Part shown: positions 11,442 to 38,103 of the stretch, piece after piece | How positions within the stretch are numbered: the first letter of the stretch is position 1 | Layout of the letters: each line of letters begins with the position of its first letter | Virus record (IMG/VR): IMGVR_UViG_3300025889_000209 | Location: 1 to 44,927 of that record | Direction: 5' to 3' (one strand) | DNA: 44,927 bases | DNA from: a virus | Notes under the pieces: model-generated | Told to the model about the DNA's origin: nothing | The model's input: the letters and a program-made list of their open reading frames with translations, nothing else | Database searches by the model: none | Position numbers and translations under genes: made by a program

Positions 11442-13556
11442 ATGCCGCTAAAGAAGCTCACACTCAAAGCCGGGGTCAATCGGGAGAACACTCGATACAC
11501 CAACGAAAACGGTTGGTACGAGAGTGACAAAGTGCGTTTTCGCCAGGGTACGCCTGAAAAGATTGGCGGCTGGGCGCGGATCTCGGCCAATACGTTCCTT
11601 GGCATTTGCCGGTCACTGTGGAACTGGGTAACGCTTGGTGGCGCCAACCTGCTGGGGCTTGGAACGAACCTCAAGTTTTACATTGAAAATGGCGGGGCGT
11701 ATTACGACATCACCCCAACAATGCCGGTAGTGACATTGTTAAATCCATTCACAACCAACACCGCCACCAACTCTGGTGGATACACAACGGTGACGGTGAC
11801 TGATGCTGGCGGTGGATACCTGAACAATGACTTTGTCACATTTACTGGTGGCACAGCTGTTGGCGGGGTAACCGTTAACGGCGAATACCAGATCACCAAA
11901 ACATCAACAACAACCTACACCATTTTGGTTTCTGGAACAGCGTCTTCCAGCACAACTGGTGGCGGTACTGTGTATGCCGTCTATCAAATCAATACTGGCC
12001 CAGAGTTGGTTGCGCCAATCACGGGCTGGGGCGCTGGCTTCTGGGGCTCTGGAGCATGGGGTATTGGAACAAGTTCCGCCGAAGCTATCCGCATTTGGAG
12101 CCAGACAAACTTTGGCTCTGACTTGCTATACGCACCCCGCGGCGGCCAGATCTATTACTGGAGTTCCACGATTGGATACCAGGCATCAACCGTCACGATG
12201 ACGATTGCATCGCCGTGCGTTGTTACGGGAACAATTGCTCTGGCCAACAACACGCCAATTATTTTCCAAACCACGGGTGCATTGCCCACGGGCCTTTTGG
12301 TGGGCACGACGTACTATGTTGTAAACACGGCTGGCGTGACATTCAACGTTGCTGCAACTTCTGGCGGAACGGCAATTAATACTAGTGGCACGCAATCTGG
12401 GGTTCATTCAATCTCTGCCAGAGGGATTCCGTTGACCAGCCTCAGCGGAGGAAGTGATGTTCCTATCATTCAGGAATTCATTTTTGTATCGGATACAAAC
12501 CGGTTTATTTTTGCATTTGGCACTAACGATTATGGAAGTACCGTTCAGTCAAAGATGCTGGTTCGCTGGTCTGATCAGGAATCCCTGACTGATTGGACGC
12601 CTGCGGCTACCAACCAGGCCGGCAGTGTTTTGCTTTCGCATGGATCTACGGTTGTAACATGCCTGCAAACCCGCCAGGAAATTGTGGTGTGGACGGATTC
12701 GACGCTGTATTCGTTTCAGTATGTAGGCGCTCCCGCGGTGTGGCAAACCCAGCTGCTGGGGGACAACATCTCGATTGCTAGCCCTAACGCCGCAGCTGTT
12801 GCGTCTGGCGCCGTGTACTGGATGGGTGTGGACAAGTTCTACAAATACGATGGCCGCATCCAGACCCTGCGTTGTGACCTTCGCCAATTCATCTACGGCG
12901 ACATCAACCTTCAGCAGGCTGACCAGATTTTTGCCAGCACCAATGAAGGATTCAACGAGGTTTGGTTCTTCTACTGCAGCGCCAACTCAAACACGGTTGA
13001 CCGCTACGTGGTTTACAACTACTTCGAAAACAACGGCGAAGGGGTTTGGTACTACGGGAACATGGCCAGGTCGGCTTGGCTGGACTCTGGGCTAAGGGAT
13101 TACCCTATAGCTGCTACGTATATCAACAACATCGTGAACCATGAGTATGGTGTTGATGATGCTGCCACGGCAATCCCAGCATCGATCTATGCCCTGATTA
13201 GCTCATCGGAATTTGACATCGATGATGGGGATCGGTTTGGCTTTGTGTGGCGGATGCTGCCTGACGTTACGTTCCGCGGATCGACGGCCACCAGCCCGCA
13301 GGCTACGCTGACATTGATCCCGATGCAGAACTCGGGCTCAGGGTATAACAATCCGACGTCGGTTGCCGGAAGCGACAATGCTACTGTGGTGAGGACTGCC
13401 ACGGTTCCCATCGAGCAGTTCACCGGCCAGGTTTACGTTCGGGTTCGAGGCCGCCAGATGATTATTCAGATGGAGTCTGACCAGCTGGGATGCACCTGGC
13501 AGATGGGCTCACCTCGAATCGACATCCGCCCGGATGGCCGCAGAGGTAACACATGA
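11442..13556 (+). CDS. Large tail/head-tail structural protein (704 residues)
   Basis: Starts PLKKLTLKAGVNRENTRYTN and continues with segments such as GWYESDKVRFRQGTPEKIGGW, a pattern seen in podovirus proteins annotated as tail or DNA-stabilisation proteins, though I cannot assign the family firmly. Many W-G, Y-Y and beta-rich segments across the chain (VWYYGNMARSAWLDS, WQMGSPRIDIRPDG) fit a beta-propeller or hub fold. About residues 90-180 and 250-330 look like inserted Ig-like or Gly/Thr-rich domains. Its stop overlaps the next start (ATGA at 13553). It contains one near-copy of the window's 14-bp palindrome at 12065. A virion location is likely; the exact place is inference. Confidence 0.8.
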   Translation: MPLKKLTLKAGVNRENTRYTNENGWYESDKVRFRQGTPEKIGGWARISANTFLGICRSLWNWVTLGGANLLGLGTNLKFYIENGGAYYDITPTMPVVTLLNPFTTNTATNSGGYTTVTVTDAGGGYLNNDFVTFTGGTAVGGVTVNGEYQITKTSTTTYTILVSGTASSSTTGGGTVYAVYQINTGPELVAPITGWGAGFWGSGAWGIGTSSAEAIRIWSQTNFGSDLLYAPRGGQIYYWSSTIGYQASTVTMTIASPCVVTGTIALANNTPIIFQTTGALPTGLLVGTTYYVVNTAGVTFNVAATSGGTAINTSGTQSGVHSISARGIPLTSLSGGSDVPIIQEFIFVSDTNRFIFAFGTNDYGSTVQSKMLVRWSDQESLTDWTPAATNQAGSVLLSHGSTVVTCLQTRQEIVVWTDSTLYSFQYVGAPAVWQTQLLGDNISIASPNAAAVASGAVYWMGVDKFYKYDGRIQTLRCDLRQFIYGDINLQQADQIFASTNEGFNEVWFFYCSANSNTVDRYVVYNYFENNGEGVWYYGNMARSAWLDSGLRDYPIAATYINNIVNHEYGVDDAATAIPASIYALISSSEFDIDDGDRFGFVWRMLPDVTFRGSTATSPQATLTLIPMQNSGSGYNNPTSVAGSDNATVVRTATVPIEQFTGQVYVRVRGRQMIIQMESDQLGCTWQMGSPRIDIRPDGRRGNT
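12065..12078 (+). promoter_or_regulatory. Near-copy of 14-bp palindrome (TGGAACAAGTTCCG)
   Basis: Differs from TGGAACAAGTTCCA only at the last base. Here it is read in a different codon frame (Gly-Thr-Ser-Ser) from the coding copies at 16479 and 21882 (Val-Glu-Gln-Val-Pro), so shared protein sequence cannot explain it. Confidence 0.55.
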
Positions 13557-14929
13557 CGTTGATCGTCACCACCGAAAACGAGCTGCTGCGGGTAGCTCCG
13601 CCAAACCTGCCATTGGCACCAACTCAGTATGACTCGCGGTATCACGAGCAGTTCAACAATGTCCTGCGCCTGTACTTTAACCAGCTCAACAAAATCGTGG
13701 GGCAGCTTGTGGCCAACACATCAACTCTTCCCGTATCAATTGATGGTACCAATACCGATGCGTTTGGACGGCTACGTGTAAGCCAGCCTTACACGTTGTT
13801 TGACAGCCAGAACCGATATGCGGCGGACACCCAGTTTGATACCAGCACAGCTACTGGCGGTTCGACAACATACCTGTCGAACGAGTCCACGTTGCGCATG
13901 AACGTGACTACGTCGTCTGGTTCTGAGGTGGTGCGCCAGACGTTCCGCAGCTTCCCGTATCAGCCTGGGAAAGGGCTGCTTTGTTTGGCAACGTTTGTAA
14001 TGAACACAGCCAAGACGGGGCTGCGTCAACGGGTTGGCTACTTCAATACCCAGAACGGCGTGTTCTTCCAACAGGCCGACAGCACCAAGTCGTTTGTGTT
14101 GCGGTCCTATGTAACGGGTTCTGTGTCTGATGCCAGGACGGTCAATCAATCAGACTGGAACGGCGACAAGCTCGATGGCACCGGCGCGTCTGGGTTGACG
14201 CTGGACACTTCCAAGGCACAGATTCTGTGGATGGATTTTGAGTGGCTGGGCGTAGGCTCGGTACGGTGCGGCTTCATTATTGATGGCCAATACATTGTTT
14301 GCCACACGTTCCAAAATGCTAACGACATCCAGAACGTGTACATGACCACTGCCACGCTGCCAGTAAGATACGAAATTACTAATACTGCAGCGACGGCATC
14401 GTCCTCAAGTTTGAAGCAGATTTGCTCATCCGTCGTTTCGGAGGGCGGTTATGAGCAGTATTCGCCGGGTCATATTGCGCGGCGCACAACAACGGTTACA
14501 ACAATTGGCTCTACATTCAAACCGATTGTTTCTATAAGACTGGCATCCACATCGCCTGGAGCGGTGATTGTTCCTGGACGAATCCAGGTTCTGCCAACAA
14601 CCAGCCAGAACTACGAAGTGGCATTGGTAAAAAATGCAACCTTGACGGGCGCGTCGTGGGTCACGATGCCAACGGACTCAAACGTGGAGTATGACGTTTC
14701 CGCCACGGCCATCACTGGCGGAACAATTGTTCAGACAGATTATGTGTCGTCCAGTGGCGCTGGCGGCACGGTTCCGTTGGTTGACCCGGCTGGTTACAAC
14801 TGGGCGCTCCAGCCCGGGGTTTCGCTTGCCGGGGTAAGCGACATCATTTCAATCCAGATTAGGACTGTTTCTGGCGCGACCACGGGTGACGCGGTTGGCT
14901 CTTTATCCTTCTGGGATCTCACCGCATAA
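13553..14929 (+). CDS. Virion structural protein (458 residues)
   Basis: A short helical N-terminus (about 28-55, HEQFNNVLRLYFNQLNKIVGQ) leads into a beta-rich body with segments typical of phage structural proteins: DAFGRLRVSQPYTLFDSQ, then QTFRSFPYQPGKGLL, then RQRVGYFNTQNGVFFQQ. The same order is seen in baseplate or tail-tip proteins of large environmental phages that carry a jelly-roll or lectin-like fold; I recall the pattern but cannot name the family. It is coupled to the 704-residue gene by ATGA and to a downstream micro-ORF by TAATG. A carbohydrate- or host-contact role is possible. Confidence 0.8.
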   Translation: MTLIVTTENELLRVAPPNLPLAPTQYDSRYHEQFNNVLRLYFNQLNKIVGQLVANTSTLPVSIDGTNTDAFGRLRVSQPYTLFDSQNRYAADTQFDTSTATGGSTTYLSNESTLRMNVTTSSGSEVVRQTFRSFPYQPGKGLLCLATFVMNTAKTGLRQRVGYFNTQNGVFFQQADSTKSFVLRSYVTGSVSDARTVNQSDWNGDKLDGTGASGLTLDTSKAQILWMDFEWLGVGSVRCGFIIDGQYIVCHTFQNANDIQNVYMTTATLPVRYEITNTAATASSSSLKQICSSVVSEGGYEQYSPGHIARRTTTVTTIGSTFKPIVSIRLASTSPGAVIVPGRIQVLPTTSQNYEVALVKNATLTGASWVTMPTDSNVEYDVSATAITGGTIVQTDYVSSSGAGGTVPLVDPAGYNWALQPGVSLAGVSDIISIQIRTVSGATTGDAVGSLSFWDLTA

Positions 14930-14964
14930 TGGAACAAGTTCCAGCTAAACCCTGCCAATCATGA
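14929..14964 (+). CDS. 11-residue micro-ORF bridging two genes
   Basis: The stop of the upstream gene and this ATG share one base (TAATG at 14927-14931), and its own TGA overlaps the next ATG (ATGA at 14961-14964). The next gene has no visible ribosome binding site, so ribosomes could pass along this chain. The peptide is MEQVPAKPCQS, and its first 15 bases contain one exact copy of the 14-bp palindrome. It may simply be a coupling device. Confidence 0.35.
   Translation: MEQVPAKPCQS
14930..14943 (+). promoter_or_regulatory. 14-bp palindrome TGGAACAAGTTCCA, intergenic copy
   Basis: Exact copy between two structural genes: 6-bp arms TGGAAC/GTTCCA around an AA spacer. The spacer is too short for a stable RNA hairpin, so a DNA-binding site is more likely. 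Confidence 0.7.
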
Positions 14965-15344
14965 CACCTGCTGAAATCCTTGAAGTTGACGCTAAGCGCA
15001 ACCACCCGCCCGGAACCAAGGCTGGTAACTTGATGGCAATCATCAATGAAGAGCTACGCGGGAATAGTAAATTGGTTCAGCAGGGCAATACGTTGATTTT
15101 GTTTGGTAACGCCGGCGGTGTAGGGAACGCTGAATTCCACTGCTTTAATGCAGACACCCCTGAAAACCTGGCCAAAAATGTGCTCAAGTTTTTTGAGATG
15201 CTGCAAAAACTTGGCTACAAAACAGCATCAACTCCCTACGAAAACGCCAAAATTTCAGACCTGTTCAAAGCATTTATTGCTCCAAAACATGAAGTCAAAA
15301 TTGACAAAAAAGATGGCCGCTACGTCGCCAAAGTGAGGCTGTAA
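14961..15344 (+). CDS. Phage protein of unknown function (127 residues)
   Basis: A single compact alpha/beta domain: MTPAEILEVDAKRNHPPG at the start, a central stretch (LVQQGNTLILFGNAGGVGNAEF) with two strands, an amphipathic helix (ENLAKNVLKFFEMLQKLG) and a Lys-rich end. It is coupled to the micro-ORF by ATGA, and its own TAA shares a base with the ATG of the next gene (TAATG at 15342). Placed between tail and internal virion proteins, it could be an assembly protein or a minor virion component. GNAT-like acetyltransferase features were considered but no acetyl-CoA motif is convincing. Confidence 0.75.
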   Translation: MTPAEILEVDAKRNHPPGTKAGNLMAIINEELRGNSKLVQQGNTLILFGNAGGVGNAEFHCFNADTPENLAKNVLKFFEMLQKLGYKTASTPYENAKISDLFKAFIAPKHEVKIDKKDGRYVAKVRL

Positions 15345-17695
15345 TGGGATACTTAAAAAAGATGGGTCCAAGGTGGGATGATGCAATCATCCAACCGGTT
15401 GTCCAAACAGTCGAAAAGGTTGTTGAGGATCCAAAACTGCTGGCGGCAGTAGCTATTAGTGTTTTTGCTCCCGGGGTTGGAACAGCAATTGGATCTGCGC
15501 TTGGACTGGGCAGTGGAGCCGTAGCCACTGTTGTTGGCAACACAATTGTCAACGCGGCAATTAATGGCGGGGATGTTGAGAAGGCACTTATTTCAGCGGT
15601 CATTCCTGTTGCTGGCGCTGAGGTGGCAAGTGTTGCCACTACTGCGTTTGCTGACCTTGGGATGAGCACTGCGCTGGCGGATGCTGCTGGTAAAGCTACA
15701 GCAAAAGCCGTGGTGGCTGAAGTAACAGGGCAGGATCCTGCTCAGGCATTCCTTACCTCTGCAGTTTCGTCTGGAGTAAACGCAGCTGCTGAAGGAATTG
15801 ATGCTTTTAAGGAGCTGCCCAAACCTATCCAGCAAGCAGCAAAGGCTGGTATCACCTCAGAACTTACTGGCGGCGATGGTGCCAAGGCCGCGACTAACGC
15901 GCTGGTTTCGTCAGGCATATCGTCGTTGAGATCGGCGTTGAAAGACGATACGCCAACTGCCAGCAAAGAAACGCCCGTCGTTGCCGATGCAGGCATACCG
16001 CAGCAGCTGGTAAACGCTACTGAGGTCGATGACTCACAAACCTTTGACCCCAACACATTCGAAGTTGCGGAGGCGCCAACATATACGGCTGATGCAACTG
16101 ACACGGAAATTCCAGAATTCGAGCCGCAACAGATTGAGCCGTCAGCCGCTGATTTGGAAGCGCAAAAAGAAGGCTGGCCAGGCGATTACACCAGGCGAGT
16201 TTTTAACGGGGATATTGCTGCATACAAAGATGAAACAGCAAAACGTCTGGGATGGCCAGACGACGCAACCCGGCAGTACGCACAAGCAAATGGATTTGGC
16301 AACGAACCGTTTTATGCATTGCGTGCAATGCAGGAAGCGTCTGACAAAAAAGGTCTTCCGGCGGTTGCTCCAGAGCCCGTGGTAACCGCGCCCGTGCAGC
16401 CCCAGACCGAAGTCGAAGCAACAGGGTTGCCGTCAATTGCTGGAACCGAAAAGCCAGTCGAGCCAGCGCCTGTAAAAGTGGAACAAGTTCCAGAGGAAAC
16501 GAAAGAACCTGGGCTGCCATCAATCGTGGAGCAGCCTGCTCCAGCAGTGGAGAGCGAAGAAGAGTTGTATGCCAGGCTTCCTCCTGAAATAGTTAAAGCG
16601 TTGAAAGAATTGCAAACTAGCAATGAAATGTTTTCTAACATTTCGCCAAACACAGATTTGCCTGTTACGGAAAACACAACAGAAAATGTTGAACCAGCTC
16701 CAGTTGAGCCAGTAGCGCCGGCTTCAGTTAGGCCGGAAGTAGCGGAAATGCCGCGGGCTGAATTTCCTGAGCCAGGGGCAATTGTGCCGGGCGATGTTGG
16801 TCAGTCAGATCCAGTAGCTCAAAGATTTGGATATGATCCAGAAAAGTACCCGGTGCAAAACTTTGGGGTGCCTGCTGATCAGAATATAAATTCCTATCAG
16901 CAAACGCTGAAGGAAATCTATGACAACGGCGGCCTGACATCCCAGTGGATGCCCAACGGCGATGGCACAAACACGATAGTTAATGATGACGGCAGCACCG
17001 TCACTATTAACGAGAAAAACGAAATTATTTATACAACCCCGGCTACCGATAATCAGCCGGCAACAACGCCTGCGCCGGCAAAGCCAACGACACCGAAACC
17101 TGCGGCACCAACGATTGGCGGGACAATGGCAGCGTCTGGCTCGACCAGCACCGCGCCCAAAGGGGACATTAGTCAGAACATAATCAATGCGGCGGCAGCT
17201 GGGCTTTTGACTGCTGGTGCAGTATCGGCACTTGACTCGCTGACAAGTGGGACGCCGCAGCAGCAGGCTGTAGCCAGGGACGTCCTTAAAATGGACTGGA
17301 ACCAGCAGAATGTCCAACCAGTCCAGCGCGGGATTGCGTATGGCCAGCAGTTTTTGAACCCGAAGTTTACGAAGGTAAAAGCAGCGGCTGGTGGTTTGAT
17401 GTCTCTGGCCGGTGGCGGTATGCTTGGCTCCTACTCGGACGGCGGCAGATTGCTTCGCGGCCCGGGTGATGGCATGTCTGACAACATCCCTGCATCGATT
17501 GCTAATAAGCAGCCGGCGCGGCTGGCTGATGGGGAGTTTGTTATTCCCGCAGATGTGGTGTCACATTTGGGGAATGGTTCAACGGAAGCTGGGTCGCGTG
17601 TTCTGTATGAAATGATGAACCGGGTTCGCAAGGCTAGGACGGGCAATCCTAAGCAAGGCAAGCAGATCAAGCCGCAAAAATTCATGCCAAAATAA
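15344..17695 (+). CDS. Internal virion (ejection) protein, 783 residues
   Basis: About residues 30-200 are Ala/Gly/Val-rich and hydrophobic (VAISVFAPGVGTAIGSALGL, VVGNTIVNAAING), as in ejected proteins that enter the host membrane. The centre is Pro/Glu-rich and probably disordered, with repeated GLPSI motifs. The C-terminus has GGLMSLAGGGMLGSYSDGG, then ARLADGEFVIPADVVSHLGN and GSRVLYEMMNRVRKARTG, a tail I associate with podovirus internal proteins and perhaps a packaging or docking signal. The start has GAGG six bases upstream and shares a base with the previous stop. It contains an exact 14-bp palindrome at 16479. It heads the four-gene block ending with the polyvalent protein. Confidence 0.82.
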   Translation: MGYLKKMGPRWDDAIIQPVVQTVEKVVEDPKLLAAVAISVFAPGVGTAIGSALGLGSGAVATVVGNTIVNAAINGGDVEKALISAVIPVAGAEVASVATTAFADLGMSTALADAAGKATAKAVVAEVTGQDPAQAFLTSAVSSGVNAAAEGIDAFKELPKPIQQAAKAGITSELTGGDGAKAATNALVSSGISSLRSALKDDTPTASKETPVVADAGIPQQLVNATEVDDSQTFDPNTFEVAEAPTYTADATDTEIPEFEPQQIEPSAADLEAQKEGWPGDYTRRVFNGDIAAYKDETAKRLGWPDDATRQYAQANGFGNEPFYALRAMQEASDKKGLPAVAPEPVVTAPVQPQTEVEATGLPSIAGTEKPVEPAPVKVEQVPEETKEPGLPSIVEQPAPAVESEEELYARLPPEIVKALKELQTSNEMFSNISPNTDLPVTENTTENVEPAPVEPVAPASVRPEVAEMPRAEFPEPGAIVPGDVGQSDPVAQRFGYDPEKYPVQNFGVPADQNINSYQQTLKEIYDNGGLTSQWMPNGDGTNTIVNDDGSTVTINEKNEIIYTTPATDNQPATTPAPAKPTTPKPAAPTIGGTMAASGSTSTAPKGDISQNIINAAAAGLLTAGAVSALDSLTSGTPQQQAVARDVLKMDWNQQNVQPVQRGIAYGQQFLNPKFTKVKAAAGGLMSLAGGGMLGSYSDGGRLLRGPGDGMSDNIPASIANKQPARLADGEFVIPADVVSHLGNGSTEAGSRVLYEMMNRVRKARTGNPKQGKQIKPQKFMPK
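16479..16492 (+). promoter_or_regulatory. 14-bp palindrome TGGAACAAGTTCCA, copy in internal virion gene
   Basis: Exact copy inside the coding region, read as Val-Glu-Gln-Val-Pro in a disordered Pro/Glu-rich segment, where protein-level constraint is probably weak. Confidence 0.7.
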
Positions 17696-17704
17696 GGAAG
17701 CATC

Positions 17705-18856
17705 ATGGCACTTTTGACTTCTCCTGGGACGAGCGCCACGCCGACGACGTCAGTAACGACGACGCCAAGTCCTGACGTTCAGCCCTACGCGCAGGATGTA
17801 CTGCAAAAAGGGCAAGCGCTTATTGATGCTGGAACCCCCGCGTACACAGGTAAGATGACGGCGGGTACGTCAGACCTACAGAACCAAGCATGGCAAGGGT
17901 TGTCTAATCTGACGCTACCCAGTTCGTTGAAAGAATCCGGTTCGCGCTTGGGTGACCTAAGCCAGCAGGCATCAAACTACCGATTTGATCCGTCAACGGT
18001 CACCACGTACATGAACCCGTACATCCAGAATGCGCTAAACCCGCAGCTGGAGGAGTTGCGTCGGCAATCGCAGATCAACCTGCAGCCGTATCTGGCCAAG
18101 CTAACGCAAGCTGGTGGTTATGGTGGTGGCCGGGAAGCTATTTTGAGAAGCGAGGCCAACCGTAATTTGCTGCAAGAGCAATCCAAAGTAACGAGCCAGG
18201 GATACAAAGACGCCTACGACAACGCCATGAAGGCGGCGCAGTATGCGTCTGACCTGGGGCTTAAAGGGATCACGACTGGAATTCAAGGAAGCCAAGCGCA
18301 GGGCAACGTTGGGGCTCAGGAAGCTCAATACGGGTTGCAAAACCTGCAGGCGCTGTCCACGGCAGGCAAGACCCAGCAGGAACAGGAGCAAGCTGGATTG
18401 AATGCTCAGTACAACGAGTTCCTGCGCCAGCTCAAGTACACGCCCGAAATGTTGAAGACTCAGGCAGATCTGATTCGTAACATGCCTGGAGGCACAACGG
18501 TTAACACGTACAGTGCCCAACCCAGCACGCTGCAGCAACTGGTTGGCTCGTCGGCAGGTGTTGCATCGATTGTCAAGAACATGAAGGAAGCCGGCATAAC
18601 GCCGGACGTCATTGCAAAAACGCTAAAGTCGTTGGGTATTAATTTCAATTCTGGAGATACCTACAGTACTAACCCGAGCGACTATGCAAATTTCCCGGAT
18701 TACATCGGAGGAACTCCTGGAGCCGATACAGTTAATCCAGATGATTATGCAAATTTCCCTGATTACATTGGTGGCGGGATCGATACAGTTCTTCCAGAAG
18801 ATTACGCAAATTTCCCTGATTACATTGGCGGGACTCCTTCGAGGGATGAAGAATGA
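17705..18856 (+). CDS. Internal virion protein with C-terminal triple repeat, 383 residues
   Basis: Mostly helical and Gln/Ala/Leu-rich: after a Thr/Pro-rich start come YMNPYIQNALNPQLEELRRQ and LTQAGGYGGGREAILRSEAN, segments typical of small internal or ejection proteins of environmental podoviruses. The C-terminal ~65 residues contain three units of DYANFPDYIGG spaced 19-21 residues apart. AAGGAAG precedes ATG 17705, and the stop overlaps the next ATG (ATGA at 18853). Its place between two other ejection-type proteins supports the role; the function of the triple repeat is unknown. Confidence 0.78.
   Translation: MALLTSPGTSATPTTSVTTTPSPDVQPYAQDVLQKGQALIDAGTPAYTGKMTAGTSDLQNQAWQGLSNLTLPSSLKESGSRLGDLSQQASNYRFDPSTVTTYMNPYIQNALNPQLEELRRQSQINLQPYLAKLTQAGGYGGGREAILRSEANRNLLQEQSKVTSQGYKDAYDNAMKAAQYASDLGLKGITTGIQGSQAQGNVGAQEAQYGLQNLQALSTAGKTQQEQEQAGLNAQYNEFLRQLKYTPEMLKTQADLIRNMPGGTTVNTYSAQPSTLQQLVGSSAGVASIVKNMKEAGITPDVIAKTLKSLGINFNSGDTYSTNPSDYANFPDYIGGTPGADTVNPDDYANFPDYIGGGIDTVLPEDYANFPDYIGGTPSRDEE
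18670..18835 (+). repeat. Three C-terminal DYANFPDYIGG repeats
   Basis: Three units begin near 18677, 18740 and 18797; each contains the DNA string GCAAATTTCCC[GT]GATTACAT. Units two and three are nearly identical at the DNA level, so the last duplication is recent. Confidence 0.85.
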
Positions 18857-20475
18857 GCGAAGCATCACAAAACCTGATTGAAATTCAGTCGCTTCTGCAA
18901 AACCCGACTCGGGTTTCAACGCTGGATTTGATGAACTACGCCAACGGGTCCAACCCGGCGGTGCCTTCATTTCTTGCGCTCATGGAGCTGAGCCGACGTA
19001 GCCAAATTGAAAGAACGTCGCAAGACTTCAATGGCCCGCAGGCGTCGGTAAAAGACCAGACCATCGCCGCGCTTACGGGTCGGGGACAGCCCCAGCCAGC
19101 CAACCCAACGTTGCCGGCACAGGGCGCGAGCTTGGCTTCTGCGGCACCGATGGTTAACCCTACCCAGGCACCTCAGCAGGTTAACCCCACGCAAGCGCCC
19201 CAGCAGGTGAACCCAACGGCGACGCCGATGCAGGCGGCTAGCGGTGGGTTGATGTCCATCCCTGTCAACAACATGTTCAAAGCCAAGAGCTACGCTACTG
19301 GCGGAATCGTGGCGTTTGATGGGGGCGGAAGCACCAACGATGAGTTTAGGAAGTCCGAGCGGGAGTACCGCCGCGACCTGGAAATGATGAGGCCGGACTC
19401 TGATAAAGAGCCCCCAATTAAATATCCGCCCCGGGCCACATACAAGCTGGGCAATCAAACGATCCAAGGCCCGCGCAGCCAAGAGGAAATCTTTGCTGGC
19501 CTGCCTACGATCCCGCGTCCGCAAGCCACCCGTCCTGAAGACATGACTGTTGAGCAGGCAGCGGCACGGCAAAAGGAAATCCAAAGGGTTGCCGGCGTGT
19601 CCGAAGACCCATATGCCGAGGCAAGGGCATATCAAAAGGGCATCGAGGAGCGCCAGGCTGAAGAGCGCAAGGGCAATGCACTCGAACGCTTGATGGCCCA
19701 GGCTGAGGCCTTTGCTACGGCTGATCCCACCAAAGGGTTTGGCTATCAAGCGGCGGCAAGCTCAAAAGCATCCCGGGGTTTGGAGGCTGAGCAACGCGCT
19801 ATCCGCGAAAAGCAAGACGCTCTTAATCTGGACTTCCGCCGTAACCTGGCCAAGGAAGACGATGCTCGTCGGCGCGGCGATGCTAATGGCATTACTGCGG
19901 CGCTTAAGCAGCAAAAAGATGACCAGGCTGCTTATGACAAGCTGGAGATGGATTACCAGCGGTTGGAGCAAGGGCGTTACACAACGGCGGCAAACATTTA
20001 TCAGGCCGAAGCCACTGCTGCCAAGATGCCGATTGATATCTTCCAAGCGGATACAGCTCGCCGTAATGGTGAGTCATCCGCAGACTATCACAGGCGGATG
20101 GCTGCAGTCTCCGAACGCAATGCTGCGACTAATGAAGCGCGTGAAAAGCGGGAGGATGAATCTAAGCCTACGGCTGATGAAATTAATCGCAACCGCATTT
20201 TGGCGAGAGTATCCCAAGACCCAGTCGTCAGACAGTTGTCAAAGAGCATGGAAGGCCTGGATCCTTCAACCCCTGAGTATCACCAAATTGAAATGGCTAT
20301 TTACAACAGGATGAAGGCCTACTTTGCGGGGTTTGAACATTTGCTGCCGCCCAAACCCGAGGCGGTTGCGCCGTTGCCTCCAAGACCAAGGACAGGATTC
20401 TTTGGTGGTCGTCCTGCGCCAGCTCCAGCTCCAGCTACAATTCCGCCTGGGTGGACGGTTCAGGTGCAGCCATAA
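18853..20475 (+). CDS. Internal virion protein, 540 residues
   Basis: About residues 90-125 contain a short tandem repeat (NPTQAPQQV), followed by ASGGLMSIPVNNMFKAKSYA and TGGIVAFDGGG, related in style to the GGLMSLAGGG segment of the 783-residue protein. About 150-450 is highly charged and helical (KREYRRD, EARAYQKGIEERQAEERKG, RNLAKEDDARRRGDANG), suggesting a long coiled coil. The end is Pro-rich. It is coupled to the previous gene by ATGA and followed after 10 bases by the polyvalent protein gene. Ejection into the host with the DNA is inferred from composition and position. Confidence 0.78.
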   Translation: MSEASQNLIEIQSLLQNPTRVSTLDLMNYANGSNPAVPSFLALMELSRRSQIERTSQDFNGPQASVKDQTIAALTGRGQPQPANPTLPAQGASLASAAPMVNPTQAPQQVNPTQAPQQVNPTATPMQAASGGLMSIPVNNMFKAKSYATGGIVAFDGGGSTNDEFRKSEREYRRDLEMMRPDSDKEPPIKYPPRATYKLGNQTIQGPRSQEEIFAGLPTIPRPQATRPEDMTVEQAAARQKEIQRVAGVSEDPYAEARAYQKGIEERQAEERKGNALERLMAQAEAFATADPTKGFGYQAAASSKASRGLEAEQRAIREKQDALNLDFRRNLAKEDDARRRGDANGITAALKQQKDDQAAYDKLEMDYQRLEQGRYTTAANIYQAEATAAKMPIDIFQADTARRNGESSADYHRRMAAVSERNAATNEAREKREDESKPTADEINRNRILARVSQDPVVRQLSKSMEGLDPSTPEYHQIEMAIYNRMKAYFAGFEHLLPPKPEAVAPLPPRPRTGFFGGRPAPAPAPATIPPGWTVQVQP

Positions 20476-20485
20476 GGGAAATTAA

Positions 20486-23400
20486 ATGCCTACATTTGTA
20501 TTTACCGCGCCGGACGGTAAAACCTACACGGTTAATGGACCTGAAGGTGCGACGGCAGATCAGGCATTTGGCATTCTTCAACAGCAACTAAGCGCACAAG
20601 CCGCGGCACCAGCCGCTCAACCACCTGCTGCCCAACCGCCAGCGGCAGAGCCGCAGCCTGGAGCAGCGCCGCAGGTCTTTAACGCCCAAGATTATTTGGA
20701 GGCTGTTGAAAAGCGCAAATTAGAAAACCCGGATCGTTCCGCTGGTGACATTGCTGTAGATGTCGGCATCACATTCCTCAAGGGCGTAATTGGTTTGCCG
20801 GAGGCTTTTGTTGGCTTGGCAGATATTCCAACTGCTGGCTACATTGGCAAAATTCTTGAAAACGCAGGCTTCAAACCAAAAGAAGCCAAAGCCATTCTTG
20901 ACAGTTACCTGTCAGAAGCACAGCAAGCGGCCAACAGAAAGGTCAGAGAAGCTGAAGGCTTCGGAGGCACGGTTGCCGCTGCCCTGCAAAACCCAAGCGT
21001 GGTTGCAACATCGATTGGCGAGTCCTTGCCCCAGATGATTGGTGGCGCTGGCGTAGCTCGCAAGATGCTGCAGTACGGCTCCAAAGCGGCGGGTGTTGGT
21101 GCGGGCGCCGTGGGTCCAACGCTGCCAGGCGTTCTCTCACGCACTGTCGGTGAGAAGCTCGCCCCTGTCGTGGCCGGTGCCGCTGGTGAGGGTTTGTTGG
21201 GCGCTGGTTCTGCTGCGGAAGAGCTGCGTCAGGATTCAAAGACCGGTCTTCTGAGCGGCAGGGAAATCGTCTCTTCTATTGGCTCCGGTGTTGGTACGGC
21301 TTTATTCGGCCTGGCCGGTGGCCGCTTGGCCCAAAAACTTGGCTTTGACGACATCGACACTTTGCTGGCGACTGGCGTGTCAAGAGGCCCGGCAAAATCG
21401 GTTGGCGACTTTGCCAAGAAAGCCGCCGCTTCTGGTGTATCGGAGGGTTTGTTTGAAGAGATGCCGCAGTCTGCGCAAGAGCAGATGTGGATGAACTACG
21501 CCACTGGAAAGCCGCTGATGGATGGCGTGCCAGAGGCGATGGGCATGGGCCTGGTGACTGGCGCGGCCATGGGTATTGGTGGCGTTGGAGCTGGCTCAGC
21601 ACTGAACCGTCTGCGCCGTGGAAGAGATGGTACAGCCGAGACTGGTGCTCCTCCCGAGCGGATAGAACCTACCGGCCTGCCTGGACTGCAAACACCGCCC
21701 GCTGGTCCTGCACCGGCGGCTCCTCCGACCCTCGAAGACCAGGTTAACGAACTGCTGCGAACCGCGGAGACCCCGCCTGCAGAGTCGGCAACCCCGGCAA
21801 CAACTGCAGCAGAAGAAGCTGCACAGGATCAAAACGCTCTGCTCGAAGAGCTGCGCGTCATCATGGGCGGCGAGCCCAGAGTGGAACAAGTTCCAGCAAC
21901 CCCAGGAGAAACCATTGGCGCTCAAGCCCCTCAAGCCATCGAAGCAGAAGCGCAAGGACAAGAAGCTCCCGCCGCCGCCCCAGCAGTAAACCAAGAACTG
22001 GAAAACCGGTTCAACGCTGTTGTTCAGTCGTACCGCGATGCCGGTATGGATGAGAACGCCAGGCTGACAGAAGCCGGGCGCAACCTTGGCGGCAAGCCTG
22101 GTGAGTTGACCGAGCAGCGCGTTGCCGATGCTGAGCAAATTGCCAGCAGGTTGATCAGGCAGAACAACCTCATCAAAGGGGCTGAGGCCGGGACCAACGA
22201 GCCGGTCGAGCCGCGCATGCGTACAGTTGCCGACCTGTATCAAACGAAGTATGAAGATGCTTCGGGTGATGTTGTGCCCAAAGATGTCCAGCAAATGGTT
22301 CTGGACAAGGTCAATGGCTATGTCAAGCAACTTGCAGACAAAGGCGTTCAACTGGAAGAGGTTGATGCCCGCTTTCCAAAAGATCTGCTAGACATAAAGT
22401 CAAACATGATGAGGTTGACGGGAACGTTTATGCGTTACGCCAACCAGCTCAAAGCGGTTACCAAAGATTACAAGCGAGCCAACTTTGCTCAGTTTGAGCA
22501 GGCCGAGCAAGATCTTGGGCAAATGCTTGGCGTTGACCTGCGTGAGATGCGCGAGCCAACGCCCAAAAAACCTGAGCAGTTGCTGAGCGAAGCAACGGAT
22601 GCTGAGCTTGAATCGGCGATGAAGGAGCGGAGTGATTCGCCAGTTTCTCAGCTGTATCCCGGAGATATCCAAGCTGAAATTGACCGGCGCAAAGCTGCGA
22701 AGCCGCAAGCCCCAGAAATTACAGTTGATGAAGCACTTGCTAAACAAGCAGATGCTTTGGACAAATTAAAAAAGGCGCAAGCAAAAGACGACAAGCTAAG
22801 TAATTCTTTGCCAACAAATGATCCTCGCTTAATTAAAGCAAGGGAAGAACTTAATAAAGCAGACAAAGAAGTAAGTGATGCTACGAAAGTAGCTGCAGAT
22901 GCTATTAGTGCTCGTGAGGAAAAGACGGCCAAGCCGCAGAAGGAGCAAGCTCCGTCGGTAGAGCCAGAGGCCGCCGCCAAAGCCAAGGCTCAGCAGGATA
23001 TCGAGGACGCCCTCGGTGACCTGGGTGACATCCTTGGCAAGGGCACGCGCCTGAACATCGTTCCCGAGCAAGAGCAAAAACTCATCCCCGTCCTGACCAA
23101 GCTCATGGACGCGGCCTTCCGCCTTGGGTATATCAAGTTCAAGGAAGCGGCCAGGTACGTGATGAACCTGATCCGCCAGAAGCTGGGCAAGGATGTTGCA
23201 GACGAGATCACGATTGACCACCTGCAGGGCGCGTACATCGGTATGGCCGGCAAGTATCAGGATCAGGGAGCCAGCAGCAAGAAGGACGTTGTTTCTGTTG
23301 ATTCCTTGGATGAGCTGGAAGAAGCCGAGCAAGCGCCTGCAGAGGAAGCTCCTGCGGCCAAGCCTGGCATTACTGATGCCAAGGTAGTTGAGCAGCTGCG

Positions 23401-26400
23401 CGACCGCTTGATCGGCGGTGATGGGTTCAAGTCAATTGTCGAAGCCCGCAAGTTCATTGAAGAGCTGACTGGAAAGAAGATCGAGCCTGGCACTACTGAC
23501 GCCAAGGTCGCCGACGAGGTGGTCGAGGCCGCCGTGGTTATGGCTGCCAGGGAAATCATCCAGGCAGGCCGGGCTCAGGGCCGCAGCCCCCAGGTTATCT
23601 ATGACCGCCTGGTGGACCTGTATAACCGCCAGCCCAACCTGGGCGTGCGCACCTCGACCAGCGTGGCCAACCAGGCCTACTCGACCCCTGCGCCGTTGGC
23701 GTTTATCGCGTCTGAGCTGGCCGGCATCACGAACGACACCACGGTCTACGAGCCCACTGCTGGCAACGGCATGCTGGTGATCGGTGCCGCTGAGGGCAAG
23801 CTGACACTCAACGAGCTGAACGACGACCGGTTCGCAATGCTCAAGCAGCTGTTCCCGAACGCCACGGTTACCCAAGGCAATGCTTTGGAATCCAAGGTCA
23901 AGCCTGGATCGTTTGATGTGGTCATCGAGAACCCGCCGTTTGGCAAGGTTGGCGACATCAGCAACATCGACCACGACATTGCAAACCAGTCTCTGCTGGC
24001 GATGATGCCCGATGGCCGGGCGGTGCTGATCCTTGGCGGCGTGCAAGCAACCACTGAGGAAGGCCGGCGCGAAGGCTATCGCGGCAAGGCCAAGCGCGAG
24101 TTCTACTACGACCTGTACAACAAGTACAACGTCGTCGATCACTTTACTGCTGGCGGCAACCTGTACGCTAAGCAAGGAACCACCTACCCCGTTGATGTCA
24201 TCGTGATTGACGGGGTGGGCAAATCGCAGCGTGACCTGCCCGCGGCTGACCTGCCGCAGCTGATCACGTCCTACGAACAACTGAAGGAGAAGCTAAATGA
24301 TCGCGTGGTACCCGGAGAATCTCAACGCCCCAGCGCAACTGACAGCGGTCCTGGTACAGGCGGGGAAACTGGAGAAGAAGGAGTGGCTGGAGGCGCTGGC
24401 CGACCGGGTGGTGGATCTGGCACTGGCGGAGGACGACCCACTAGAGGCGTCCAACCTGGCGTGTCTGAAGATGGGGCTCCCCAAGGTGGACGACCCGGAA
24501 CAACTGGGAGCCTCACTGGTGCAGCACAACCTGGAGCTCAGGACGTTTCTGAACCTGTCGGAGATCGCGGAGCAGTGGCCGGCCCAGGTGAGCAAACCCC
24601 TGGAGGGCGCAAAGGAAGCGCTGAAGGAGTCGGACCTGGACCTCTGGGTGGAGTTAGCGTTGTCGCAGGCGAGCGGGTCGGATCTGGATTAACAGACCGC
24701 GCTGGCCAGGAAACCGAAACGGCTGGACAAGTTACTTATAACCCGCACTCAATGGCCAATTCGGTCGGCACTCTTGTGCCCCGCGCCATGGCCGATTCGA
24801 TTGAGCAGTCGCTGGCAAAGGTTGAAGCCGACAAGGGCAGTTTGGATGATTACGTCGCTACGTCTTTGGAAATGGATCCTGAGACGGTGCGCGAGTTGTT
24901 CTCCGCCGAGCAGATTGATGCGCTAGCACTGGCAATTAAAAACGCTGAGGAAGGCAAGGGCTTCATCATTGGCGACCAAACGGGCATTGGTAAGGGCCGT
25001 GTTGTGGCCGGCATGATCCGTTACGCCCTGGTCAATGACAAGATCCCAATCTTCGTCACGGAAAAGCCGAACCTGTATTCGGACATGATCCGCGACTTGG
25101 ACGACATCGGCATGACCGATGAGCTGGCGCTAGACACAGCCAAGCCAAAGATCCTGATCACAAACTCTGACGCCAAGATTCCGTACACCCTGCTGCGCAC
25201 GGTCAATGGCGAGATCACGGAAAACAACCTGACGCTCAAGGCGCCCAAAACCGGGGCGGCCATGGAGGGCGTGCTCAAGAAGATGCAGGCTGATGACAGC
25301 CTGGGCGATTTCAAAGTCATCTTCACCACATACAGCCAGCTGCAAACTGTCAAAGGGAAGATGACGGAGCGCATGCGGTTTGTCAGCCACTTTGGCGCAG
25401 CCAATTACATGATCTTCGACGAAAGCCACAACGCTGGCGGCGCCGGAGAGCAGCAGGCTCGAACCAAAGAACAGCGCGAAAAAGAGAAGAACGGCGAAAG
25501 TTTGGTCACAGGGCGTGCGGCGTTTGTCCGCGACTTGGTCCGCAAGGCATTCGGCACGTTCTTCTCATCGGCCACTTACGCTAAGCGCCCGGACGTGATG
25601 GATCTTTACTCCAGCACGGACATGAAGCTGGCCGTAGACAAGATCTCTGACCTGGCTGACGCCATCAAGAACGGCGGCATTCCGATGCAGCAGGCCGTGG
25701 CCAAGATGCTGACCCAAGTGGGCCAGTACATTCGCCGCGAGCGCACCTTTGCTGGCGTGTCCTACGACACCCAGGAAACAAAGGTGGACAAGCAAACTGC
25801 CGAGAACATGGCCACCTCGATGCGCGACATCCTGGCCTTCTCGCGCATGAAGGAAGCCGTCGTCAAGGGCATCCAAAAGGAGTTCGACAAGCAGGGAGCC
25901 AAGCTCGGCGAAGTAGGCGAAAGAACCAAGGTGCAGAGCGCCAACTTTGGCTCAATCATGCACAACTTGATTGACCAGATGCTGCTGTCGCTCAAAGCTC
26001 AGGACAGTGTGCGTCATGCCATCGAGCGCTTGAAGGCTGGCGAGAAGGTCGTTATGACCGTCAGCAACACGATGGGCTCATTCCTGAAGACCTATGCCGA
26101 CGACATGAACCTGTCGGTTGGCGACAAAGTCGAGCTGTCCTTTGCTGATCTGTACGAGCGCTATCTTGAGAAGCAGCGCATGATCAAGATCAAGCGCCCG
26201 GGCGGCAAAGTAGAAGAATACAGACTGACTGACGAAGACCTTGGCCCTCAGCTTGTTGATGAGTTCAACCGTATCAAGGAGTTCATTGCGGGCGCTGGGT
26301 TTGGATCCGCTCCGATCAGTCCGATTGACTACATGCATGCCGAGCTTCGCAAGGCGGGGTACAAGACGGAGGAGATCACTGGCCGCGATATGGTGGTGAG

Positions 26401-35766: not shown

Positions 35767-35957
35767 ACGGCGGCCCCGAACGTGTCCTCAATGTCGGTGG
35801 CCTTCACCAGCTTGACCTGCTCCTCAACTTGGGAGACAACGCAAAAGTCACCGATGTAGGAGGACAGATCGACGCGGTCCATGGAAATGCCAAACTTGCG
35901 CCGGACGTGCATGAGGATGATGTCCTCGACTTCGGCTTTGGTAAAAACTATCTTCAC
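35763..35957 (-). CDS. First gene of leftward early operon, 64 residues
   Basis: GTG start at 35957 with AAGGAG seven bases upstream, 30 bases downstream of a good leftward -10 element (35987-35992). The protein begins MKIVFTKAEVEDIILMHVRR and has a helical first half and a strand-rich second half with one cysteine (YIGDFCVVSQVEEQ). The length and the 'TKAEVEDII' style recall small early phage proteins of unknown function. Its promoter-proximal place suggests high early expression. Confidence 0.75.
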   Translation of the reverse strand: MKIVFTKAEVEDIILMHVRRKFGISMDRVDLSSYIGDFCVVSQVEEQVKLVKATDIEDTFGAAV

Positions 35958-35986
35958 AGGTTCTCCTTGGGTTAAAGTGAGGGGAC

Positions 35987-36016
35987 ATTATACCCACACC
36001 AATTCATGTGTTGCAA
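35987..36016 (-). promoter_or_regulatory. Sigma70-type promoter for leftward operon
   Basis: On the minus strand TTGCAA (36016-36011) and a perfect TATAAT (35992-35987) are 18 bases apart, placing the start of transcription near 35979, about 20 bases before the GTG of the first gene. It reads a ten-gene operon coupled by stop-start overlaps. Confidence 0.75.
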
Positions 36017-36024
36017 GGACTCTT

Positions 36025-36501
36025 ATGAAATTTATTATTGGGGTTGACCCGGGGGCTCATGGAGCCATTGCCATCATGAACATGAACGGGAGCCTGGTGC
36101 GGCTGCTGGACATGCCGGTGGTCCAGGTCCAGGTTGGCAAGGCGGTAAAGACCAGGGTCAGTCCTGAGCTGCTGGCTTATGACCTGAGCTGGTACTCCGG
36201 CGAGGCGCACGCTTGGGTGGAACAAGTTACAGCGATGCCGGGCCAGGGGGTCAGCTCGATGTTCGCTTTCGGGGAGGCGTTTGGCATCGTCAAAGGGGCT
36301 CTGGCGGGCAACAATATCAAGATCAGTACTGTCACCCCAGCCAAGTGGAAAAAAGCGCTGCAGCTCGATTCTGGCAAGGATGCGAGCCGGTCCATGGCCA
36401 TGGGGATGTGGCCGGCGTTTGCCGGGTCGTTCAAGCGGGTGAAGGATGACGGGCGGGCCGAGGCTGCGCTGCTTGCAGAGTACGGCCGCCAGCAGATCTG
36501 A
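36025..36501 (+). CDS. RuvC-like Holliday junction resolvase
   Basis: 158 residues from ATG 36025 (AAGGA eight bases upstream); an extension to 35881 would run through the divergent promoter and is rejected. The RNase H-like fold shows D8 (IIGVDPGAHGAIAI), E66 (WVEQVTAMPGQGVSSMFAFG) and D141-D142/E146 (KDDGRAEAALLAEY), all expected catalytic acidic residues. It would cut four-way junctions left by recombination or replication before packaging. It is divergent from the recombination operon across a 67-base gap and followed by an intrinsic terminator. The E66 region contains a one-mismatch copy of the 14-bp palindrome. Confidence 0.9.
   Translation: MKFIIGVDPGAHGAIAIMNMNGSLVRLLDMPVVQVQVGKAVKTRVSPELLAYDLSWYSGEAHAWVEQVTAMPGQGVSSMFAFGEAFGIVKGALAGNNIKISTVTPAKWKKALQLDSGKDASRSMAMGMWPAFAGSFKRVKDDGRAEAALLAEYGRQQI
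36218..36231 (+). promoter_or_regulatory. One-mismatch copy of the palindrome (TGGAACAAGTTACA)
   Basis: Differs from the consensus at one base and encodes Val-Glu-Gln-Val-Thr in the catalytic region of the resolvase, where the protein motif itself is conserved. It may therefore be chance. Confidence 0.35.
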
Positions 36502-36553
36502 TACAGTAGCGCCGCGGTGATTGCAGTTGCCGCATCATGGTTGATTCTTGTTG

Positions 36554-36587
36554 AGTTCCCCCTCGCCGAAAGGTGGGGGGACTTTTT
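36554..36587 (+). terminator. Intrinsic terminator after resolvase gene
   Basis: A nine-pair GC-rich stem (CCCCTCGCC with GGTGGGGGG) closed by a GAAA tetraloop (36568-36571), extended by AGT/ACT pairing and followed by five T residues at 36583-36587. Confidence 0.8.
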
Positions 36588-36666
36588 CCAAGACGCATGG
36601 GGATGTGGCCGGTGTCGCCACGCTAATCGAAGGACGCACGACGAGTCCCCAGCCGTGTTGGAAAAA
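36583..36666. repeat. Large imperfect inverted repeat, 21-base arms
   Basis: Arms 36583-36603 and 36646-36666 pair at 18 of 21 positions around a 42-base loop that contains its own hairpin (GTGGC/GCCAC, 36605-36621). The right arm ends just before the -35 box at 36672, so a cruciform or RNA form could affect that promoter. Confidence 0.7.
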
Positions 36667-36671
36667 AATAG

Positions 36672-36702
36672 TTGACACGCGTTGAAGCTGTGTTGGTATA
36701 AT
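36672..36702 (+). promoter_or_regulatory. Consensus sigma70 promoter for the small RNA
   Basis: Perfect TTGACA (36672-36677) and perfect TATAAT (36697-36702) with a 19-base spacer, slightly longer than the usual 17. Expected transcription start near 36709. Confidence 0.8.
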
Positions 36703-36708
36703 CCACCC

Positions 36709-36830
36709 AGCTAGGCGTGGAAACCTAAGCAACGAAAGCCGTTAAGTCAGACTCCGACCCCGACTGGGGTGCCGTCCTCCAAAAGAGGGTGGGTTTCCAC
36801 CGGGGTCTGTCTTAACGGCTTTTTGCTTTT
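36709..36830 (+). ncRNA. Candidate novel ~120-nt phage small RNA with own promoter and terminator
   Basis: Start near 36709 from the promoter above. Stem B: 36735-36746 pairs perfectly with 36811-36822 (12 bp), continues after a T-T mismatch with 36748-36755 against 36802-36809 (8 bp), and ends in a T-rich tail (TTTTTGCTTTT), so it is a terminator. Inside lie ACCCC-GACT-GGGGT (36757-36770) and CCTC/GAGG (36776-36788). Stem A: 36717-36727 pairs with 36790-36800 (11 bp, one G-U), and these arms interleave with stem B. The RNA could form an H-type pseudoknot or switch between two folds. No downstream gene is directly controlled, so a trans-acting RNA is more likely than a riboswitch. I do not recognise a known family. 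Confidence 0.7.
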
Positions 36831-36831
36831 C

Positions 36832-36918
36832 GGGAACTGGACTGGTAACGGGTTAGCTCCGTGACTTGGTCTCCGTAACTTTCACAGAACGCTGCTTCAT
36901 GCGAGCAGTTCAGTTCCC
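36832..36918 (+). repeat. Stem-loop, 13-bp arms with inner hairpins
   Basis: Arms 36832-36844 and 36906-36918 pair at all 13 positions with one G-U. Inside are ACGG/CCGT and CTGCT/AGCAG, the latter competing with the right arm. Directly downstream of the small RNA terminator. Confidence 0.65.
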
Positions 36919-37090
36919 ACCCTCCACACCCAGCCGGACTCCGCCCGTCAGCAAGCACTTGAAATCGGTGGCGCGGAAGAAAAGACAATCGTGCCGGCAA
37001 GACCAACCGGTGCGTGCGAGCGTAGTTGAGCGACTCGCGCAGGCAGGGGTGACTCGTGACAGCCAAAGCACCCTTCCCGATGACTCAACC

Positions 37091-37148
37091 ACCCATGGTG
37101 GGTCGCCCAGTGATGGTCGGCTGCTGGTCTAAGGGCTAACCCCTAGAC
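37091..37148 (+). repeat. Two short hairpins
   Basis: ACCCA/TGGGT around TGG (37091-37103), and GTCTA...TAGAC plus GGG/CCC around CTAA with one mismatch (37127-37148). Neither is followed by a T-run. Confidence 0.5.
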
Positions 37149-37154
37149 GGGCAC

Positions 37155-37193
37155 GGTGACTGAGAAGCCTAAGATGATGGCCCCCCAGTCACC
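37155..37193 (+). repeat. Stem-loop GGTGACTG/CAGTCACC
   Basis: Perfect 8-bp arms (37155-37162 and 37186-37193) around a 23-base loop, ending 17 bases before the -35 box of the next promoter. GTGACT also occurs at 36861 and 37050, so this may be part of a small family of repeats. Confidence 0.55.
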
Positions 37194-37209
37194 CGGCGTA
37201 GCTTGACTC

Positions 37210-37238
37210 TTGCACACATCAGATGCATTTGGTACAAT
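37210..37238 (+). promoter_or_regulatory. Sigma70-type promoter for the ParB-like gene
   Basis: TTGCAC (37210-37215) and TACAAT (37233-37238) with the ideal 17-base spacer; transcription should begin near 37245. The exact palindrome at 37262 would lie at about +18, a normal position for a repressor site. Confidence 0.8.
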
Positions 37239-37261
37239 ATATGTGGTGCAAGCCAAACGGG

Positions 37262-37275
37262 TGGAACAAGTTCCA
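37262..37275 (+). promoter_or_regulatory. 14-bp palindrome TGGAACAAGTTCCA between promoter and ParB-like gene
   Basis: Exact copy about 18 bases downstream of the predicted transcription start and 19 bases before ATG 37294. An operator here would block early transcription, and the encoded protein is itself a DNA-binding protein, so autoregulation is the simplest reading. Confidence 0.75.
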
Positions 37276-37293: not shown

Positions 37294-38103
37294 ATGAGCA
37301 AACCCATCGATATCAACAAGATCCGCATCGACGGCGGTACGCAATCACGCAAGCAGGTCTACGAGGACACTGTCACGGCGTACACCGAGGTGCTGTTGGA
37401 CGGGGGGAAAATGCCTCCTGTGGTCGTCTTCAACGACGGCAAGGATCTTTGGCTGGCTGATGGGTTCCACCGCTACCATGCCCACAAGCGGGCTGCCATT
37501 CGCTCTATCGAGTGCGAAGTCCACACGGGCACCAAGCGCGATGCGTTCATCTATTCCCGCGGTGCCAACTCGGAGCACGGCCTGCCCCGCACCAACGAGG
37601 AGAAGCGCCTGGTGGTTGCCTCCCTCCTCGAAGACATCGAGTACGCAGACAGCTCTGACCGGGACATCGCCAAGATTTGCAAGGTGTCCCACATGACCGT
37701 GGGCCGCATCCGCAAGGCCATGGAGCTCAACAAGAAGCAGAAGCTCCCGCCGCCCCCGCCTGCCAAGCCCAGCACCAAAGCGCCCGAGCCTGAGCAGCCC
37801 GCGGAGGTTACCGAAGAGGATCGGATGGCAGAGCTGGCCACAGAGATGAGGGCCATCGCCGAGGAGAACGCCAAGCTCAAGGACCAGCTGGCCATTGTGG
37901 ACATGGACATCGATGATGCCGCCAAAGCCCAGGTCACGACGACGATTGACGACCTGCGTGCGGAGGTCAAAGACCTGGAGATGCAGCTCAAAGCCGTGAC
38001 CATCTCCAGAAACGACTTCCAGAACAAGTTTGCCGAGGCTGTGAAGCAGGTGAACTACTGGAAGAAGCGTGCTGAGAAGGCTGAAAAAGCAGCCACTGTT
38101 TGA
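37294..38103 (+). CDS. ParB-domain DNA-binding protein
   Basis: 269 residues from ATG 37294, with AAGGAG at 37283-37288; a GTG at 37288 is less likely. The ParB/sulfiredoxin-like domain is seen in IDINKIRIDGGTQSRKQ, PVVVFNDGKDLWLADGFHRYHA and YSRGANSEHGLPRTNEEKR, followed by a helix-turn-helix (about 121-142, SDRDIAKICKVSHMTVGRIR). A Pro-rich linker (150-172) leads to a long coiled coil (180-265). In ParB relatives the central HTH binds a palindromic site (parS), and this gene has an exact palindrome in its own leader. A role as regulator, in partition or in DNA organisation is possible; ParB-type CTP motifs are only partly visible. Confidence 0.88.
   Translation: MSKPIDINKIRIDGGTQSRKQVYEDTVTAYTEVLLDGGKMPPVVVFNDGKDLWLADGFHRYHAHKRAAIRSIECEVHTGTKRDAFIYSRGANSEHGLPRTNEEKRLVVASLLEDIEYADSSDRDIAKICKVSHMTVGRIRKAMELNKKQKLPPPPPAKPSTKAPEPEQPAEVTEEDRMAELATEMRAIAEENAKLKDQLAIVDMDIDDAAKAQVTTTIDDLRAEVKDLEMQLKAVTISRNDFQNKFAEAVKQVNYWKKRAEKAEKAATV

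Follow-up and report, generated by a model that had tools for sequence, protein, structure and literature searches.

A dispersed 14-letter palindrome in a phage genome as the probable operator of its own ParB/KorB-like protein

The viral record IMGVR_UViG_3300025889_000209, analyzed here over its whole length of 44,927 nucleotides (hereafter the window), carries copies of a 14-letter palindrome, TGGAACAAGTTCCA, scattered within and between genes, which raises the question of what reads these sites and what they do. The earlier note on this DNA had proposed a protein-binding site, perhaps parS-like, either for the ParB-domain protein encoded at 37294 or for a host factor. Comparison with related phages indicates that the palindrome very probably serves to dock a ParB/KorB-like protein encoded by the phage, since the versions of the palindrome covary with the recognition helix of that protein. 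We consider it probable that the copies are dispersed operators of this protein, with transcription control as their most likely function.

All six copies listed in the earlier note were recovered, and no strand is assigned to any of them. Four are exact: one upstream of the ParB-like gene's start codon, in its 5' leader behind the promoter (37262..37275); one intergenic, immediately behind the virion gene 13553-14929 and its stop codon (14930..14943); one inside the gene 15344-17695, where it is read as VEQVP (16479..16492); and one in a giant gene of 3808 amino acids, again as VEQVP, within a low-complexity linker (21882..21895). Two further copies have one mismatch: TGGAACAAGTTCCG (12065..12078), in the GTSS frame of gene 11442-13556, may be a weak, degenerate site, and TGGAACAAGTTACA (36218..36231), in the EQVT frame of a gene for a RuvC-like resolvase (PHROG 1770, Pfam RuvC), may be a coding coincidence and is also present in the related locus L007. 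No other one-mismatch copies and no TT-centered copies were seen in the window. TGGAACAAGTTCCA is by a wide margin the most frequent 6-N2-6 palindrome of the window; with up to three mismatches allowed it has 17 matches, versus 3.7 ± 2.1 in dinucleotide shuffles (0 of 100 shuffles reach 17), and 300 synonymous shuffles of the 36.4 kb of coding sequence gave a mean of 0.023 exact copies, none reaching the observed 2. The copy number is thus beyond chance. The copies occupy at least two codon registers (EQVP at 16479, 21882 and, as EQVT, 36218; GTSS at 12065), and those at 14930 and 37262 are intergenic, which, together with the synonymous shuffles, speaks for a site at the DNA level and against a repeated peptide. 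An RNA hairpin was rejected, as the earlier note had argued, because a two-base loop cannot close, and because relatives alter both arms and keep no fixed strand.

A longer relative extends this picture past the window. Contig G001 (locus L005) is near-identical to the window from 24501 to ~41758, then diverges, and extends 16 kb past the window end. It contributes five more exact copies, at 24046 (before terS), 24919 (in the terS-terL spacer), 29745 and, as a tandem pair, 36499/36532. Since locus L112 joins the end of G001 to the start of the window, the whole genome is suggested to be ~66 kb long with nine exact sites. The copy at 24919, TGGAACTTGTTCCA, has a TT center and the opposite orientation; the single orientation described in the earlier note therefore stands for the window and not for the genome, and relatives mix AA, TT and TA centers. 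Two side observations concern the same region and clade: fragment L061, ~69% identical to G001 there, has four TGGAACAAGTTCCA copies inside 170 bp upstream of terL (1173-1342), and AGAAAATTAG follows the palindrome at a distance of exactly 5 nt at five sites in the window's clade (G001 24938, G002 14984, G003 7922, and G005 7269 and 20776). An exact 14-mer scan of viral contigs found, among the matches listed, a number of relatives of this phage group, and no named phage matched the window by megablast.

The candidate reader is a ParB/KorB-like DNA-binding protein of 269 amino acids, encoded on the plus strand at 37294..38103 (PHROG 1033, E=3.5e-20). It has a ParB-N/sulfiredoxin-like domain (~1-98) followed by a helix-turn-helix (HTH; 122-147), the order typical of the ParB/Noc/KorB fold, then a disordered linker (~149-171) and a long C-terminal coiled coil (174-268); its recognition helix starts at His133 (codon 37690-37692). 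The Pfam ParB_N match scores under the curated cut-off. The AlphaFold2 model (predicted local distance difference test score 83) shows the ParB-N domain, the HTH and the long coiled coil, and Foldseek/VIA matches it to Noc, ParB and KorB (Z about 11-13.5), the best joint cover of N-domain and HTH being given by the KorB-KorA-operator structure 8qa9_B (Z 12.9, 2.6 Å over 135 residues). Among the nucleotide motifs, Gly57 and Arg60 of a GxxR-like stretch and Asn92 are invariant in 54 sequences, in a register taken from the alignment. The gene is preceded on the plus strand by a sigma70-like promoter, TTGCAC-17-TACAAT (37210..37238); the 37262 palindrome begins 23 nt past the -10 box and stands 18 nt before the ATG, and L007 keeps it exactly, though 11 nt are deleted before it and 8 nt inserted after it. 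The ParB-like gene was found in 10 of 11 tested terL-related contigs of at least 34 kb, the exception being G064.

To compare the sites among relatives, loci were collected by the ParB-like protein (33), by its alignment (80) and by the large terminase (80), and ~30 relative contigs were compared whole or nearly whole; some contigs are short, and several motif calls are based on two copies. Many related phages have dispersed palindromes of their own, including TGGAACWWGTTCCA, TGTAACWWGTTACA, CGCAACWWGTTGCG and ATTAACASTGTTAAT, and a de novo search found several dispersed copies of the own version in many genomes. Upstream of terL, many relatives carry palindromes with symmetrically altered arms, such as TGGAACTTGTTCCA, TGTAACTAGTTACA, TGTCACTAGTGACA, TGGTAAATTTACCA and ACTATAACTTGTTATAGT, and further versions there include AATTAACAGTGTTAATT, CATATTTTCAGGTGAAAATATG and ACTATTCCACGTGGAATAGT, with half-site spacing ranging from 2 to 4 within the family. 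The table of genomes against motifs is nearly diagonal, each genome having 2-6 exact copies of its own palindrome and almost none of the others. A host factor as reader, the other possibility raised in the earlier note, was rejected on these grounds, as the motif differs among related phages and every lineage has its own version matching its own protein.

The version of the palindrome appears, from the sequence comparison, to follow the recognition helix of the ParB-like protein more than overall relatedness. Most of the variation in the helix falls on the position following an invariant Ser (His133 in the 37294 protein) and its surroundings. GTTCCA accompanies His in two clades whose proteins share only ~55% identity beyond the HTH. 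GTTACA is found with Arg-Val-Ser-Ala, Lys-Val-Ser-Ser and Lys-Val-Ser-Val, GTTGCG with Lys-Val-Ser-Asp, GTTTCA with Asp-Val-Ser-Asn, and GTTAAT, at a spacing of 3 or 4, with Asp-Val-Ser-Ser. Among the sampled genomes with a called motif, M-T-V/I-G-R helices go with GTT as inner bases, which shift to GTG with MTVNR, GTA with VTVNR, TTA with VLVGR, GAA with ATVSR and GGA with QTVGR. Per-column mutual information was too confounded by ancestry and was replaced by close pairs, a tree built without the HTH, and partial Mantel tests. In the close pairs G058/L411 (88% identical outside the HTH), L437/G062 (86%) and window/G005 (70%), helix and motif are altered jointly, whereas the window and the distant G053/G059 (55-56%) both have His and a common motif, sharing TGGAAC, while closer relatives with Ala or Ser at the His133 position have other arms. 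The HTH-free tree places the two His clades apart and groups the window's protein with Ala, Ser and Asn lineages at 99/97. With blind motif calls, noise included, motif correlates with helix given backbone (r=0.26, p=0.028) and not with backbone given helix (r=0.08, p=0.20). In Caulobacter ParB, Arg173, which touches parS base 1, belongs to a set of four residues that switch specificity (PMC7383237); mapped through the preceding conserved Ser and the shared fold, the His133 position would correspond to this residue.

Positions between terS and terL, in the giant-gene linker and within or ahead of the ParB-like gene are retained despite the change of sequence. In six genomes the giant gene (3368-4572 amino acids) has its site at residue 416-498, in a low-complexity linker following a conserved (A/L)L-x-EL-like helix, where it reads VEQVP, INSVN or, in G055, a one-mismatch copy. 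Inside the ParB-like gene, L009, L395, L396 and G005 have a site near +65; L404 (one mismatch), L409, L413 and L416 have one near +460, with three different motifs among these four. In G001, G002 and G003, the palindrome ahead of terS lies ~20-24 nt before a TTGACC/TTGCAA-like box, as judged by eye. On a rough map of open reading frames in several genomes, which cover ~95% of the sequence, near half of the exact sites are intergenic. A docking sequence and helix that change together while several positions stay fixed point to an uncharacterized phage control system.

Several observations weigh against this reading. Most relatives lack a site right at the ParB-like gene, and the sites of G053 and G059 are mostly coding and far from promoters. 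No clear palindrome was found in the deepest clade, VSATFVDK (G013, G019); G015, a relative of this clade, has CTTTAAACGTTTAAAG at two places, one between terS and terL and one ~0.5 kb ahead of the ParB-like gene. In the final matrix, some motif columns are non-blind, and the blind top call missed the motifs of L412 and G063. Helix distance is correlated with backbone distance (0.74), which means that shared ancestry accounts for part of the covariation. Finally, the nucleotide motif is not intact, the Glu of the CTP (cytidine triphosphate) motif 'EN' being replaced by Ala91 in 54 of 54 sequences. Because Ala stands at this position, CTP-clamp behavior of the family appears doubtful; other ParB-fold proteins, phage ones included, bind nucleotides other than CTP (PMC12704722). 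Outside the group, no clear repeated palindrome of this kind was seen near 31 bacterial homologues, and the distant relatives DSL-LC04 (whole record) and HTVC027P (first 50 kb) gave no comparable palindrome and no reported match to the ParB-like protein. Separately, G028 (L265-L268), a 61-kb structural relative with no detectable homologue of the ParB-like protein, has 11-12 copies of GTAAAASTTTTAC at 44-58 kb, perhaps operators of another regulator.

How might such a system work? The two HTH domains of a dimer would read the two half-sites, with the residue at the N-terminus of the helix (His133) helping to select the outer bases (CCA here) and the M-T-V/I-G-R part going with the inner GTT. 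We infer that the protein acts in transcription control: once bound, it would most likely control its own gene, from the site just behind the promoter or, in relatives, within the gene, and the late operon, through the sites before terS and in the terS-terL spacer. Intragenic sites may be extra loading or road-block sites, like distal KorB operators or L5 stoperators. Sliding of the bound protein as a clamp is speculative.

One of the nearest parallels among known systems is the RK2 plasmid protein KorB, which has dispersed OB operators. It shares the ParB-N domain and HTH, which its structure with KorA and operator covers together in our model (Z 12.9). In the phages, palindromes stand at the promoter of the ParB-like gene and ahead of terS. 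Promoters are separated from KorB operators by 4-10 bp or by 45 to >1,000 bp (PMC11790492), so distal phage sites would be no obstacle. Unlike KorB, the present protein is phage-encoded, has a long coiled-coil C-terminus and Ala for the Glu of 'EN', and comes with no ParA found and no KorA partner identified (none was searched for); the system also has many intragenic sites and a specificity that diversifies within one phage group. The stoperators of cluster A mycobacteriophages (L5, Bxb1) are likewise dispersed phage-wide, with one in the regulator's upstream region, and their motif varies between phages in step with the repressor (PMC6550527). Stoperators are asymmetric, have a prevailing orientation and serve an unrelated repressor in temperate phages, whereas the present sites are palindromes without fixed orientation, their centers varying among AA, TT and TA, and go with a ParB-fold protein. 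Noc/NBS and ParB/parS share palindromic sites and a residue after the conserved Ser that sets half-site specificity (PMC7383237), while in the present system nothing indicates a nucleoid-occlusion or partition role and half-site spacing runs from 2 to 4. The suggestion of a parS-like site holds for the mode of binding, but a role in partition is not supported: a ParA ATPase (PF13614) was found in 0 of 14 contigs, none certified complete, with controls positive in 14 of 14. No tyrosine integrase was found in these 14 contigs either, and for both reasons a transcription regulator is preferred over partition; we infer that a ParA-less, KorB-like regulator with dispersed operators fits better.

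Could the sites instead be centromere-like or packaging marks, through which the ParB-like protein gathers or condenses replicated DNA near the terminase and aids packaging or segregation? The ParB fold, the spread of sites over the whole genome and their multiplicity around terS-terL (four each in L061 and L281, three in L288, two each in G061 and G069) would suit this; the lack of ParA in the 14 contigs, the sites in or before the ParB-like gene and deep within structural genes, and a TerS HTH region that does not follow the motif make it unlikely. A role in immunity or competition, in which the protein of a resident phage, acting through the operators, silences relatives that co-infect and operator change is selected escape, as with L5-type stoperators, is compatible with the operator reading and would supply a reason for diversification. 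Operator specificity does diversify fast among otherwise similar phages, much as repressor and stoperator motifs diversify together in cluster A mycobacteriophages (PMC6550527); with neither tyrosine integrase nor ParA in the 14 contigs, where serine integrases and plasmid prophages were not searched, there is no sign of lysogeny, and we regard this role as quite unlikely. Another phage protein, such as the small terminase subunit, is a highly improbable reader: terS is flanked by the G001 sites 24046 and 24919, and similarly in G003, yet TerS HTH regions are nearly the same in G001 and G003/G005 where motifs differ, TerS of G053/G059 differs where the motif is the same, and it is the ParB-like helix that fits the motif; this candidate was rejected. 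Chance or a recurring peptide has a negligible probability and was likewise rejected, for although several coding copies read VEQVP or LEQVP, synonymous shuffles fail to produce them, copies also occur in the GTSS frame, antisense and between genes (the 37262 copy being conserved), and relatives hold the position with unrelated peptides (INSVN).

Other features of the window deserve mention. At 36671-36830, a sigma70-like promoter (TTGACA, TATAAT) is followed by a strongly folded stretch of ~125 nt (z = -7.0) with a long outer stem and a T-run; the stem is kept in L007, there is no Rfam match, and the stretch is a candidate phage small RNA. Next to it, ~280 non-coding bases (36930-37210) are nearly identical to L007, where the neighboring spacer differs, with a moderate fold signal (z = -2.5). 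A Mom-like DNA modification protein is encoded at 42227-42934 (PHROG 1384, E=1e-38), and degenerate 60-nt periodic repeats occupy 4392-5950 of the 2083-amino-acid gene 279-6530.

Phage ParB-like genes without ParA exist and are mostly labelled 'partition protein'. No earlier description of the present system was found in the open-access literature searched, subscription papers lying outside that search. It is possible, and we put it forward tentatively, that widespread aquatic, apparently lytic phages possess a ParA-less, perhaps nucleotide-independent, ParB-fold operator system that acts genome-wide and whose DNA specificity is continually rewritten. If so, these phages would offer, as a natural library, pairs of ParB helix and half-site from which a recognition code can be read. 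The group yields likely cognate sites from sequence alone and links them to a single variable helix. With about ten half-sites, its natural specificity variants are many, so that short DNA probes would allow direct tests both of what solitary phage ParB proteins do and of the HTH recognition code.

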